DNA of 35,700 bases from Heliobacteriaceae bacterium (GTDB lineage: Bacteria; Cyanobacteriota; Vampirovibrionia; Gastranaerophilales; Gastranaerophilaceae): the NCBI GenBank assembly GCA_031265495.1, contig JAISCP010000151.1, forward strand, positions 1 through 35,700. Reading direction: 5' to 3'. This document shows, piece by piece, positions 4,869-35,581 of this stretch. Every line of letters begins with the position of its first letter. The first letter of the stretch is position 1. A program made the translations under genes and the position numbers. The notes beneath the pieces are model-generated. The model had not been told where the DNA came from, ran no database searches, and saw only the letters and a list, made by a program, of their open reading frames with translations.

Positions 4869-5039
4869 GAGAGTGTTTATTTTACATTACTCTGTCATTG
4901 CGAGCGTAGCACTGTGCCGAATAAAACGATTAAGTATCGTTTTGTGAGAGGAAAATCCAGTCAAAACCGTTGAATTTACTGGATTGCCGCGTCGGGCTGA
5001 CGCGCTGCAATGACGAAACAATGTAAAATGAACACTGCC
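4869..5039 (-). mobile_element. 171-bp MITE-like element, copy 1
   Basis: Non-coding element with ends GAGAGTGTT and AACACTGCC, imperfect terminal inverted repeats of about 30 bases (outer part AGTGTTYATTTTACATT), and internal palindromic REP-like sequence (GTCATTGCGAG ... GCAATGAC). It is flanked by a perfect 8-bp direct repeat CGAATAAT (4861-4868 and 5040-5047). A copy of the same length, about 97% identical by my alignment, lies inverted at 10767-10937. It carries no transposase, so movement would need one in trans. Confidence 0.85.
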
Positions 5040-8425: not shown

Positions 8426-8496
8426 AGTAATTAGTTACATGATTTTAAGAAAATTTGCCACATCATTCCACCCTCGTCACGTCATCCTGAACTTGT

Positions 8497-8567
8497 CTTG
8501 GATTACCGGCCGTTCGGAAAAGCGTGGTTTTCCTCACTATGGGCGTTTCACGCCCGCCGGAATCCGC
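8497..8567 (+). mobile_element. ~70-bp three-stem hairpin element X, copy 1
   Basis: Begins CTTGGATTACCGGC and ends GCCGGAATCCGC, which pair as an outer stem. Inside are GGAAAA/TTTTCC (8516-8533 region) and GGGCG-TTTCA-CGCCC (8541-8555). The second copy at 26881-26950 keeps the same architecture, loop TTTCA and linker TCAC while the stem bases differ in compensating pairs. It follows GTCATCCTGAACTTGT, the left half of another palindromic repeat. Confidence 0.7.
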
Positions 8568-8606
8568 AATCGTTTCGTTCGGCAGAGTCTCAAGGGGAGG
8601 GTAATT

Positions 8607-8696
8607 CAACCCTTAAACCTTTCAACTATTCAACCAATTTAGCTATCCCTCCAGCCCTCTACCTCTTAATTCCCTATTCACTCTTAATAAATCTTA
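8607..8696 (+). repeat. Octamer arrays (TTCAACNN and CTATTCAC types)
   Basis: ATTCAACCC, TTAAACCT, TTCAACTA and TTCAACCA are tandem octamer units, followed by TTTAGCTATCCCTCCAGCC and CTATTCAC units. The same order recurs inverted or direct at 1930, 21530 and 27127. Confidence 0.65.
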
Positions 8697-10766: not shown

Positions 10767-10937
10767 GGCAGTGTTCATTTTACATTGTTTCGTCATTGCA
10801 GCGCGTCAGCCCGACGCGGCAATCCTGTAAATTCAACGTTTTTGACTGGATTTTCCTCTCACAAAACGATACTTAATCGTTTTATTCGGCACAGTGCTAC
10901 GCTCGCAATGACAGAGCAATGCAAAATGAACACTCTC
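10767..10937 (+). mobile_element. 171-bp MITE-like element, copy 2
   Basis: Inverted copy of the element at 4869-5039. Its ends on this strand are GGCAGTGTTCATTTT and AAAATGAACACTCTC. The flanks are a perfect 8-bp direct repeat TAATTTCA (10759-10766 and 10938-10945). By eye about five bases differ from copy 1, including two differences that weaken neither terminal repeat. No coding capacity. Confidence 0.88.
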
Positions 10938-14835: not shown

Positions 14836-15090
14836 CGTCATCCTGAATTTATTTCAGGATCTGGCCAACGTAAAAAATATTCAACTTCCGTAAGCTTTAC
14901 TTCCCCGTACAGAAGTCAGATCCTGAAACAAGTTCAGGATGACAGGATGGTTGTTCGGCAACTGATGGTCTTTTTGCTTTTATTGATAACGTCATTGCGA
15001 GGAGCTTGCGCGGCAAGCGACGAAGCAATCCAGTCAAAAATGTTGAATTTACCGGATTGCCGCGTTGGGCTGACGCGCTGCAATGACGCG
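14836..15090. repeat. Palindromic REP-like repeats (two families)
   Basis: GTCATCCTGAAT with TTTCAGGATCTG opens the first unit and its inverted partner CAGATCCTGAAAC ... AGGATGACAGG closes it at about 14945. The second unit (14990-15088) begins GTCATTGCGAGGAGC and ends CTGCAATGACG. No gene is apparent in 14523-15279 other than the remnant noted; a short ORF at 15223-15279 is discussed among rejected items. Confidence 0.7.
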
Positions 15091-18111: not shown

Positions 18112-18128
18112 TCATGAATAGATGATAA

Positions 18129-18330
18129 AATTAGTTGAAAGGTTGAATAGTTGAACGGTTGAATAAATTTTGGGTAGAACCTGATGTAATGGGTGCAGGC
18201 TCAGCCTGCCCTTCTCCCTCTGGGAGAAGGTGCCCGCGGATGAGGGTTTTATTGATTTAAGTAAATAGGTGACTATGATTGGTTTTTAACAGCCCTATTC
18301 ACTATTTCCTATTTGCTATTTACTAATAAC
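18129..18330 (+). repeat. Composite repeat with octamer and heptamer arrays
   Basis: Order: GTTGAAAG GTTGAATA GTTGAACG GTTGAATA (period 8, 18134-18165), TTGGGTAGA with a weak hairpin, GCAGGCTCAGCCTGC palindrome, CCTTCTCCC/GGGAGAAGG hairpin (about 18209-18231), GGATGAGGGTTTTATTG, and further on CTATTCA CTATTTC CTATTTG CTATTTA CTAATAA (period 7, about 18295-18329). It occupies the whole ribE-nanE divergent region except the two promoters. Confidence 0.7.
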
Positions 18331-19067: not shown

Positions 19068-19958
19068 TTGAGTAATATGAAAAAAGCGCTGGCAATAGAT
19101 GCAGGCGGAACAAAAATTTATAACACAATCGTGAATGACAAAGGCGAAATCGTAGCCGGAGTTGAAAAACATAATACGCCGAAAACTTTTGAAGGGATTT
19201 TAGAGGTATTTAGAAAGATTATTGCAGCGCACGAAGACGAAGTTGATATAATTGCGTTTGCAACGGCAGGCGCGGTGAACAACGAAAATACCGGTATTGT
19301 CAGTTCTACCGGAAACCTTCCTGCGGAGTATCCGCTGCTGGATTTCCGGTCTTTGAGTACAAAAAAAGTTTTTGTGGAAAATGATGCGAATGCGGCGGCG
19401 TGGGCAGAGCATGTTATCGGAGTTTCCAAAAGAATGCCGCATTCCGTAATGCTTACCCTGGGCACGGGCGTCGGAGGCGGAATTATTGTTGACAATAAGC
19501 TGCTGAAAGGCAAGAGCGGCGCTGCCGGCGAAATGCATTTTAAGATTTATCCGGACAAACGCCGGCGTTGTACCTGCGGAGCTTTTGACTGTTTTGAAGC
19601 TTATGCGTCCGGAACGGGGATGAGGCTTACCGCCGAAGAAATCTCCGGCAGGTCTGATATTACTACCTATGATGTTATTGAAGGAATGAGAAAAGGCAAT
19701 GATTTAATGACAAAAATTTTCCAAAAATGGCAGAATGATTTGCTTGCAGGGCTTGCGGGGCTTGCAAATATATTTGACCCGTGCGCTTTGGTCTTGTCAG
19801 GCTCAATGGCTGAGTTTGCGGACTTGGAGTATTTGGAAAAAGAGGTTAACAGTCAAATAGTAACCTCTCCGACAAAGGTTCTGCGCGCAAACGCCGGAAA
19901 CTATGCAGGCATGATTGGCGCGGCCCTGCTGGGGCTGTCAAGAAGGTTGAATGGTTGA
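19068..19958 (+). CDS. nanK: ROK-family N-acetylmannosamine kinase-like protein
   Basis: ATP-dependent sugar kinase, most likely making ManNAc-6-phosphate for NanE. Features: phosphate-binding loop AIDAGGTK at about 9-16, catalytic region ENDANAAAWAEH (Asp in NDANAAA), LGTGVGGGIIVDNKLLKG, and the ROK cysteine cluster CTCGAFDCFE at about 168-177 (zinc site). Length 296 residues is usual. TTG at 19068 is preferred because GAGGG sits seven bases before it; the ATG at 19077 would be 16 bases away. The last codons (RRLNG-stop) lie within a TTGAA-type repeat array. Specificity is inferred from the adjacent nanE; other ROK sugars cannot be excluded. Confidence 0.88.
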   Translation: MSNMKKALAIDAGGTKIYNTIVNDKGEIVAGVEKHNTPKTFEGILEVFRKIIAAHEDEVDIIAFATAGAVNNENTGIVSSTGNLPAEYPLLDFRSLSTKKVFVENDANAAAWAEHVIGVSKRMPHSVMLTLGTGVGGGIIVDNKLLKGKSGAAGEMHFKIYPDKRRRCTCGAFDCFEAYASGTGMRLTAEEISGRSDITTYDVIEGMRKGNDLMTKIFQKWQNDLLAGLAGLANIFDPCALVLSGSMAEFADLEYLEKEVNSQIVTSPTKVLRANAGNYAGMIGAALLGLSRRLNG

Positions 19959-20050
19959 AAAGTTGAACGGTTGAAGGGTTTACATCGGAAACCTTTATTG
20001 ATACCGTCATTGCGAGGAGCGCGAAGCAATCCAGTCAAAGATAGTTGAAA
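19945..20050 (+). repeat. TTGAA-type array and REP-like fragment at the nanK 3' end
   Basis: AGGTTGAAT GGTTGAAA AGTTGAAC GGTTGAAG is a near-octameric array that includes the nanK stop codon. It is followed by GTCATTGCGAGGAGC and GCAATCCAGTCAAAG, half of the palindromic REP-like family. Confidence 0.65.
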
Positions 20051-21529: not shown

Positions 21530-21945
21530 AGGTATAGATGATTAAGAAGTATAGAGGGCTGGAGGGATAGCTAAAATTGGTTGAATAGTTGAAAGGTTGA
21601 AAGGTTTAATTCCTTCTCTCTCTGGGAGAAGGTGGCGCGTAGCGCCGGATGAGGGTTTTATTGAAATTAGTTAATAGTAAACAGGAAAGAGGGAACAGCA
21701 AAGAATTGTCACAGCCCGCCTTAACCTTCCTGTCATGCTGAAATAAATTCAGGATGACGCGGAAGTTATGGTGTTATTTGTCTGTGCAGATGCTGAAATA
21801 AATTCAGCATGACAAGATGAGGGCGGGACAACGCGACAAGCCGGTAAATTCAACGTTTTTGACTGGATTGCTTCGTCGCTTGCCGTGCAAGCTCCTCGCA
21901 ATGACGTTGATTAAACCTTTCAACCATTCAACCCTTTAACCCTTC
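21530..21945. repeat. Repeat mosaic downstream of the prenyltransferase gene
   Basis: GAGGGCTGGAGGGATAGC and TTGAATAGTTGAAAGG units (about 21557-21608), a CCTTCTC/GGGAGAAGG hairpin with GGCGCGTAGCGCC palindrome and GGATGAGGGTTTTATTG (21609-21662), then GTCATGCTGAAATAAATTC palindromes (21731-21822), a GGATTGCTTCGTCGCTTG palindrome to GCAATGACG (21838-21905), and a TTCAACC octamer array (21918-21945). No gene seen in 21525-21975. Confidence 0.7.
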
Positions 21946-26065: not shown

Positions 26066-26387
26066 TGTACATGTTAAGTCATTATTAATTCCTAAATTTG
26101 TTGCGTCATTCTATCCCCGTCCAGTCATCCTGAACGACCGGATTGACCTCCGGTGTTTCAGCATCTGCACATGACAAATAGCACCATAACCGCCGCGTCA
26201 TCCTGAACTTGTTTCAGGATCTGACCAATGACAAATTACTACGAATAAATTTGCCAAAATGAAATTGGGATGAAGGTGTTATTTCACCATGTGCCAGATC
26301 CTGAAACAAGTTCAGGATGACGTGACGGGGTTCAGCATGACGTTTTTATAATTAGTGCCAACACGCCCTAATTACTTGACATGTACA
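26066..26387. repeat. 322-bp stretch bounded by inverted TGTACATGT ends
   Basis: TGTACATGTTAAGTCATTA at the left (26066) and the complement of TGTACATGTCAAGTAATTAG at the right (ending 26387) bracket a set of palindromic repeats (CTGAACGACCGGATTGACC near 26134, GTCATCCTGAACTTGTTTCAG near 26198, and its inverted partner near 26291). The same end sequence occurs at 8416-8435. No gene is visible between 26044 and 26440. Confidence 0.5.
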
Positions 26388-26799: not shown

Positions 26800-27305
26800 C
26801 AGCGTTGCCGTCAGCAGCATTCAGCGGCATTAAATATAAAAACATCACACTGAGCGACCGTCACGTCATCCTGAACTTGTCTTGGATTATCGGCGTTGGC
26901 CGGACGTTACTCCGGCCTCACCTGGGGCTTTCAGCCCCGCCGAAATCCGCTGTTTCAGGATCTGGTCAATAACAAAAATATTCAACTTCTGTAAAATTTT
27001 CTTTCCCGTAGATACTGAAATTTGAGAGGATAGTGTGGCTTGCCATGTGCAGATCCTGAAACAAGTTCAGGATGACAGGATGGTTAAGGTGGGCTGTGAC
27101 AATCCTTTGCTGTTCCCTGTTTCCTATTAACTAATTTAGCTATACCTCCGGCCCTCTATACATCTAATTCCCTATTCACCTAATCACTTAGTCACCTATT
27201 CACTTAATAAACAATAAAACCCTCATCCGGCACTACGCGCCGCCTTCTCCCAGAGGGAGAAGGAATTCAACCATTCAACCTTTCAACTGTTCAACCCTTC
27301 AACCA
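26800..27305. repeat. Repeat mosaic containing element X copy 2 and octamer arrays
   Basis: No gene seen. From left to right: GTCATCCTGAACTTGT interrupted by element X (26881-26950) and resuming at TGTTTCAGGATCTGG; the inverted partner CAGATCCTGAAAC near 27052; TTTAGCTATACCTCCGGCC near 27136; octamers CTATTCAC, CTAATCAC, TTAGTCAC, CTATTCAC (27172-27203); the CAATAAAACCCTCATCCGG tail; GGCG/CGCC and CTTCTCCC/GGGAGAAG hairpins; and TTCAACNN octamers (27266-27305) running into the next gene's stop codon. Confidence 0.75.
26881..26950 (+). mobile_element. ~70-bp three-stem hairpin element X, copy 2
   Basis: Begins CTTGGATTATCGGCG and ends CGCCGAAATCCGC. Inner stems are GGCCGGA/TCCGGCC and GGGGC-TTTCA-GCCCC. 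It interrupts the palindromic repeat GTCATCCTGAACTTGTTTCAG between ACTTGT and TTTCAG, and TGT is repeated on both sides, as for an insertion with a 3-bp duplication. Confidence 0.72.
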
Positions 27306-28034
27306 TTAAACTGTTATATTATTTTCCGCTTTATACTTTTCAACAAGATTTTGGGATTTTACTATGGCAGAAGGGGTTTCGGTGTCATAAGTATTTTTTG
27401 TTTTTGCGTCAACTTCGGCAGGTTTATCATTCCGGTTCATCCAGTCTTTTACTTTGTCCGCTAAAGGAGTTGCTACAAGAGGTACTAATACACGTTTACC
27501 GATTATTGTTGAAGCTACAAGCGTCACCACTGAATCAAATACACCCAGAAGGTCTCTTCGAACGTCGTCAAAACCCTCATGGAATGCTTCTCCGGTTAAT
27601 TTTTTTGTTGTAGTCTCTTTTATTGCGGCTTTATAAGTTTTAGCTGCATCTCTTGAGAGATATTTTCCGAATAATTTATTGAGCATCCGTTTTTGAACAA
27701 CTGCATTTGATATTGTCAGCGCGGTTAATATCTGAAAAATAATCATAAGGGCGCCGTTTGTCAAATCCAGCGCAGCAACGAATTTCCGTTTGTCTTCGGG
27801 GATTTCTTTATTGTTCAAACTTTGTTTTACATACATAACGCAGCCCAAGCCGTCTTTAAGCACTATGGAGGCTAATCCCACTTTCATAACTGTATTTCCG
27901 AGATTTTTTTCGTACGGCGCCGCCATGTTCTGTTTCTGAAATCCGCCGCATAATTTGTTTTTTACAAACGGGCGTTCGCTAACCCATTTTACCGGTTTAA
28001 TAACAGCATCAGTTATTGCGTTTATCCGGCTCAT
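27306..28034 (-). CDS. Membrane protein of unknown function (module gene 3)
   Basis: A 242-residue protein, not assigned to a named family. Hydrophobic segments at about residues 47-69 (TVMKVGLASIVLKDGLGCVMYV region), 89-109 and 161-190 suggest three spans; the stretch KEIPEDKRKFVAALDLTNGALM between the first two looks conserved-type. The C-terminal 40 residues are polar. The start at 28034 is preferred because GAGGTG sits five to six bases before it; it overlaps the stop of the preceding gene by four bases (ATGA), so the two proteins are translationally coupled. Its last two codons and stop are read from an octamer repeat array. Confidence 0.7.
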   Translation of the reverse strand: MSRINAITDAVIKPVKWVSERPFVKNKLCGGFQKQNMAAPYEKNLGNTVMKVGLASIVLKDGLGCVMYVKQSLNNKEIPEDKRKFVAALDLTNGALMIIFQILTALTISNAVVQKRMLNKLFGKYLSRDAAKTYKAAIKETTTKKLTGEAFHEGFDDVRRDLLGVFDSVVTLVASTIIGKRVLVPLVATPLADKVKDWMNRNDKPAEVDAKTKNTYDTETPSAIVKSQNLVEKYKAENNITV

Positions 28035-35513: not shown

Positions 35514-35581
35514 GCCAATAGCAAAATCAAACTATAACCTCCCTGTCATGCTGAACTTGTTTCAGCATCTGCCTTCTGTAC

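Follow-up and report, generated by a model that had tools for sequence, protein, structure and literature searches.

CGTC-tagged REPs consist of a CGTC or TGTC tag, an 8-9 bp stem starting with AT, a 4-5 nt loop and a short tail; they often occur in inverted pairs and apparently, as judged in the survey of 2013, have no transposase dedicated to them (Di Nocera et al. 2013, PMC3733652). GTAG REPs and REPINs, associated with RAYT (TnpA_REP), are small non-autonomous tagged palindromes with an irregular stem (PMC8266576, PMC2817692). Further, the insertion sequences IS1397, ISKpn1, IS621 and ISPpu9 target REPs (PMC1525189, PMC8450116).

The DNA analysed here (the window; 35,700 nt) is one complete contig from a draft genome of 2.05 Mb, whose assembly is about 95% complete. 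It carries a non-coding three-stem repeat of roughly 70-85 bases, the unit of which runs from a 5′ YGTC tag to a 3′ AATCCGC. The repeat is probably a non-coding, non-autonomous mobile palindrome, moved in trans, that enters the loops of pre-existing hairpin repeats without target-site duplication. This reading is favored because the insert is precise, empty sites exist, host and core occur in several independent combinations, the ends are conserved together with a bulged A, the stems covary, and the element has expanded separately from one genome to another; the insertion itself is well supported. The repeat represents an apparently undescribed family of nested mobile palindromes of the REP/MITE kind, and a limited search of the open-access literature on repeats of this bacterial group returned nothing relevant.

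Structure of the element

A covariance model, trained on sequences that include both window copies, identifies exactly two copies in the window, one at 92.3 bits (E = 1e-23) and one at 69.8 bits (E = 3e-17); the match ranked third has E = 0.68. The unit is 73-74 nt long in these copies and longer in some subfamilies, and their folds compared with shuffled sequence have z-scores of -4.65 and -3.18. As initially annotated, both copies fold into one outline of an outer stem, two arms, a TTTCA loop and a TCAC linker; the outer stem has a single bulged A. In particular, the core stem begins with GGATT, extends over 10-11 bp with the bulged A, and closes a two-arm junction. The near-invariant parts are the ends (YGTCTTGGATTA and AATCCGC) and the one bulged A, and the YGTC tag is found at the 5′ end of the core in 57 of 61 copies from the source genome and 43 of 58 copies from other genomes. 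The arms are free to vary in sequence and length, and the inner arms of more distant copies have no single consensus fold in common. The coordinates of all features are listed in Table 1.

Table 1. Positions of element copies, their stems, and filled and empty host palindromes in the window (^, insertion point).
Feature	Position	Strand	Basis
Element copy 1, subfamily C (usual host H3)	8494..8567	+	Covariance-model match, 92.3 bits
H1 left half GTCATCCTGAACT at copy 1	8481..8493	+	
H3 right half AATCGTTTCGTTCGGCAGAGTCT at copy 1, recombinant junction	8568..8590	+	
Element copy 2, subfamily A, exact insert TGTCTTGGATTA...AATCCGC	26878..26950	+	Filled/empty comparison; covariance-model match, 69.8 bits
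Copy 2 outer stem, 5′ strand GGATT-A(bulge)-TCGGC, partner 26939-26948	26884..26894	+	Fold; cross-genome covariation
Copy 2 stem 2 GGCCGGA/TCCGGCC, inverted versus other type A copies	26898..26917	+	Fold; copy comparison
Copy 2 stem 3 GGGGC-TTTCA-GCCCC	26924..26938	+	Fold; covariation
Copy 2 outer stem, 3′ strand, and 3′ end GCCGAAATCCGC	26939..26950	+	Fold; copy comparison; covariation
H1 left arm GTCATCCTGAACT at copy 2	26865..26877	+	Comparison with empty sites; REP definition (PMC3733652)
H1 right arm TGTTTCAGGATCTG at copy 2	26951..26964	+	Sequence; comparison with empty sites
Empty H1, GAATT^TATTTCAGG	14837..14862	+	Alignment
Empty H1, inverted-pair partner of 14837	14918..14943	-	
Empty H1, TGC/GCA variant with TAT loop	21788..21813	-	
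Empty H1, GAACT^TGTTTCAGG	26197..26222	+	Alignment
Empty H1, partner of 26197	26296..26321	-	
Empty H1, partner of filled site 26865	27051..27076	-	
Empty H1, TGC/GCA stem variant	35545..35570	+	
Empty H3, AAAACGATACTT^AATCGTTTT	4923..4943	-	
Empty H3, AAAACGATACTT^AATCGTTTT	10863..10883	+	

A third level of nesting is observed in about six copies, where an inserted AAGCGGAGCTTTTGGCTTG...CGCCGC interrupts the element's outer stem and separates GGATTAT from CGGC; the source-genome copies with this insert are L017, L022, L152, L153, L155 and L165.

Host palindromes

The source genome contains at least 64 distinguishable copies, tabulated by distinct contexts, and all 64 are located centrally in one of three palindromes, apart from a copy at a contig edge and copies whose host arms carry point changes. 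The first palindrome, H1, has the sequence GTCA(TCC/TGC/CCC)TGAA(C/T)T^T...; of the H1 sites in the DNA that was compared, 34 are empty and 52 are filled, and a genome search finds 300 empty H1 sites in the source genome. H2 is GTCATTCCGGGCT^TGACCCGGAATC and H3 is AAAACGATACTT^AATCGTTTT, of which empty copies exist, two of them in the window. H1 and H2 classify as CGTC-tagged REPs, with the arrangements YGTC-ATCCTGAA-CTTGT-TTCAGGAT-CTG and CGTC-ATTCCGGG-CTTGA-CCCGGAAT-CTA, respectively. Copy 2 had been described as set in the centre of another palindromic repeat, and the comparison of filled with empty H1 sites confirms it. Copy 1 is nested as well, in a recombinant host that has the left half of the CCTGAACTT palindrome (H1) and the right half of the unrelated AATCGTTTCG palindrome (H3).

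H1 palindromes form inverted pairs whose members are separated by at most about 210 bases (14837-14943, 26197-26321, 26865-27076 and 21745-21813), a layout resembling BIMEs and REPINs. The intergenic DNA of the window is a mosaic of repeat families, including long direct repeats with 95-96% identity (3871-4139/4603-4884) and long inverted repeats with 97% identity (4869-5043/10763-10937). Many palindromic repeats have a short array beside them, with a period of 8 bases (TTCAACCx / GGTTGAAx); in the window, such arrays are located at 1889-1944, 8605-8660, 18124-18178, 19936-19990 and 27266-27337.

The exact insert and its targets

The empty H3 site reads GATACTT^AATCG and the filled site reads GATACTT(TGTCTTGG...AATCCGC)AATCG, with both flanks matching (junction read by eye). 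Because the H3 junctions have no letters in common, the boundaries of the insert are fixed unambiguously. The same insert accounts for the filled sites in H1 (GAACT^TGTTTC, GAATT^TATTTC and GAACT^TGATTC) and in H2 (GGGCT^TGACCC). Overall, filled and empty sites differ by the insert TGTCTTGGATTA...AATCCGC, and a target-site duplication is absent. The duplication of TGT on both sides of copy 2, proposed in the initial annotation, is ruled out by the right flanks TGA, TAT and AAT together with the unique H3 junction: the left TGT is nearly fixed in the source genome, the letters on the right depend on the host (TGT, TGA, TAT or AAT), and TGT borders copy 2 on both sides because the element's own 5′ end meets a host that also has TGT. 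The tetranucleotides of the left flank are not fixed, and include AACT, AATT, GGCT and ACTT within one genome.

The insert rule was also predictive in another genome. In G016, it predicted the empty site CTACGTGCGTAGCA (CTACG^TGCGTAGCA), for which there are 18 exact matches, 0 in the control and 8 filled sites. The eight listed copies of G016 are mostly within a palindrome other than H1, H2 and H3; moreover, this genome has 259 empty H1 sites, yet none of its copies was seen in H1, and target choice therefore differs among subfamilies. The element is missing from the congener G001, where 15 empty H1 sites are present. Copies in G030 and G346 occupy the same kind of host but have the opposite orientation. 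That insertions fall at the same host position holds for the source genome, where one fixed central position is used, but there are at least three hosts, and some copies in relatives have no obvious palindrome. Hairpin-loop targeting is thus common in the family but not obligatory. About half of the relatives' flanks are not palindromic, although the ends of the element are still exact, and comparison of orthologous loci gave no empty site with the host palindrome in place, the G001 orthologue of the window locus having no H1 at all; both observations count against a mobile palindrome.

Under the proposed mechanism, each hairpin loop would receive a single insertion, with an orientation fixed within each genome, in H1, H2, H3 or, in relatives, other palindromes. 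A putative trans-acting enzyme would recognize the terminal motif and the hairpin, most likely with the element as folded single-stranded DNA, and might attack the loop of the target hairpin.

Distribution among genomes

Pattern searches of the source genome return 36 copies of the intact pattern TTGGATTAYCGGC..CCGRAATCCGC (reversed control, 0), 48 copies of a looser pattern (reversed control, 0), and 65 matches to the left end GTCTTGGATTAT (reversed control, 1). Across the phylum, 32 of 386 genomes have a match, all from the same family except two that lack the paired stem, and a few of the matches within the family are also chance-like. About 30 genomes of the family have intact copies, and each tends to have its own homogeneous subfamily; for example, the outer-stem types are TGCAC/GTGCA in G016, TTGGC/GCCAA in G003 and TTCGG/CCGAA in G130. 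The element is also present in records named 'Candidatus Melainabacteria' and in a 'Heliobacteriaceae' bin of the same genus. Matches in genome contigs of Acidobacteria, Akkermansia and a planctomycete were rejected as chance, their 5′ flank having no YGTC tag, and viral contigs have a single match with no right end after it. Contigs often end in or near the element or its host (C36, C39, C43, C44, C99, C117, C136, C139 and others); because the assembly breaks at these repeats, the copy numbers are probably underestimated.

Core subtypes and dispersal with the host

The combinations of core and host bear on whether the core moved by itself. Subtypes A, B and E are each found with more than one stem and loop variant of H1, with the host loop letters TGT, TGA or TAT kept on the right, and L020 and L026 have an identical core in different hosts (TCC/TAT versus CCC/TGA). 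These combinations argue against composite dispersal, in which a few core insertions were followed by the spread of host palindrome and core as one unit, through whatever copies CGTC-tagged REPs or through recombination or gene conversion. The host sequence in common that borders the insertion point is just 5-6 nt, which is too short for ordinary gene conversion. On the other side, recombinants aside, subtype D is confined to H2 and subtype C to H3, so that part of the spread may be composite. Similarity also reaches past the core on both sides in G016 and G003, and recombinant hosts are found (H1/H3, TGC/TCC and L160). Altogether, we consider composite dispersal unlikely.

At L160 (G000:C11:9500-10050), two elements are fused head to head: one consists of an H2 left half and a TTCGG-type core, and the other is an inverted core that comes with an H1 left half. 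The fusion points to either recombination or template switching by way of the hairpin. Recombination through the core is also seen at window copy 1, with its H1 and H3 halves.

Covariation of the stems

Within the source genome, all three helices have pairs that are altered on both sides (11 such pairs), 98.3% of the cells are paired, and the covariation score is 0.359 versus 0.128. Across genomes, the inner letters of the outer stem form nine fully complementary types, and 112 of 145 cells pair when all outer-stem types are included, whereas shuffled stems average 80.7 and reach 96 at most. The compensatory changes noted initially are borne out by these tests both within the genome (0 of 500 shuffles as good) and between genomes (0 of 2000); neither set of shuffles allows for the relatedness of the copies. 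Copies 1 and 2 are not members of one subfamily, and copy 2 has its stem 2 in the reverse orientation to that of the remaining type A copies (GGACGTTACTCC versus GGAGTAACGTCC); as a result, part of the pairwise 'covariation' between these two copies is inversion. The paired changes had been taken to indicate selection on structure. They fit such selection, but a mobile element recognized as a hairpin would show the same, and by themselves they carry no implication of RNA function.

The element could instead be a selected RNA structure, such as a terminator, an mRNA stabilizer or a small RNA, with the insertion into palindromes incidental. The strong covariation and the mostly intergenic location of the source-genome copies (23 checked) are consistent with this explanation, but Rfam has no match at the gathering threshold and not even a weak one at E <= 1, copy numbers vary from 0 to about 65 per genome among relatives, the arms vary freely in sequence and length, with one of them inverted, and no gene neighbourhood common to the copies came to notice. 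A selected RNA is accordingly very improbable. Still more remote is the proposal that the empty sites are precise deletions from an ancestral composite by slippage between flanking TGT copies: TGT does stand on either side of the core in H1, and a hairpin would bring the ends together, but the H3 junctions have no repeat (TGTC...CGC, then AAT) and yet empty copies exist, and empty H1 sites outnumber filled ones by about 300 to 50 in the source genome and are also present in relatives whose element count is 0 or 1.

Search for a mobilising enzyme

The Y1_Tnp model (PF01797) has no match in the source genome, with its assembly about 95% complete, or in G016, and is positive in control genomes. 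Within the family, Y1 transposases have a patchy distribution, and the Y1 loci examined in relatives do not carry the element; a Y1 mobiliser of the RAYT/IS200 kind was rejected. The Transposase_20 model of IS110 is absent from eight of nine copy-bearing genomes, the source genome included, and present only in G013, and IS110 was likewise rejected. The Y2_Tnp (IS91-type) model returned no match, but its control was also silent. Among 40 left-end regions from seven genomes, in which the first 170 bases were judged by eye, there is no longer, gene-bearing copy; these regions contain elements of 60-135 nt, nested or truncated copies, and partial left ends. The two members of an inverted pair in G030 are separated by 4.5 kb; the genes between them are flagellar and regulatory ones, and the pair is not a transposon. 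A hammerhead or other known ribozyme was dismissed, with conservation at the ends and not at the junction, and Rfam silent. Integron attC sites have ends of the form GTTRRRY/RYYYAAC, which the ends of the element do not fit.

It is conceivable, though somewhat doubtful, that the mobile palindrome belongs to a new, gene-less class of hairpins that move as folded single-stranded DNA into hairpin loops, with no target duplication and through an enzyme that has no relation to Y1 or IS110 transposases. If true, CGTC-tagged repeats, to which no mechanism of movement is assigned, would gain one. These repeats are widespread, and the related tagged palindrome described here has exact ends, exact empty sites and a hairpin-loop target rule from which sites in another genome were predicted. 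With these features, the movement of such repeats can be tested, and the genomes with different copy numbers provide a set in which to seek the mobilising enzyme.

Comparison with known systems

The element resembles GTAG REPs and REPINs in its 5′ tetranucleotide tag, its stem irregularity and its genome-specific amplification, but its core tag is YGTC and not GTAG, and Y1 was not detected in the most copy-rich genome. In particular, the bulged base and the 5′ tag recall recognition by TnpA_REP, whereas its guide rule does not account for the variation of the left flanks; unlike in RAYT systems, the flank dinucleotides (CT, TT, TC, AC and CG) fit no single guide rule, and unlike in IS200/IS605-like elements, the left flank is not a fixed target tetranucleotide. 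Site-specific entry into palindromic repeats is shared with the REP-targeting insertion sequences, which are full transposons with a gene, whereas the element is gene-less and the IS110 Transposase_20 is absent here. Like MITEs, the element is short, non-coding and multi-copy, with inverted ends; unlike them, it has no target-site duplication, its ends are asymmetric (YGTCTT / GC) and its arms covary. The element and its hosts also resemble CGTC-tagged REPs. H1 and H2 share with them the CGTC or TGTC tag, an 8-bp stem starting with AT, a 5-nt loop and frequent inverted pairs, and the nested core has the YGTC tag in common. The core differs in being about twice as long, in having three helices, a GC tail and a stem whose first bases are not AT, and in being an exact, defined insert within the loop of other REPs.
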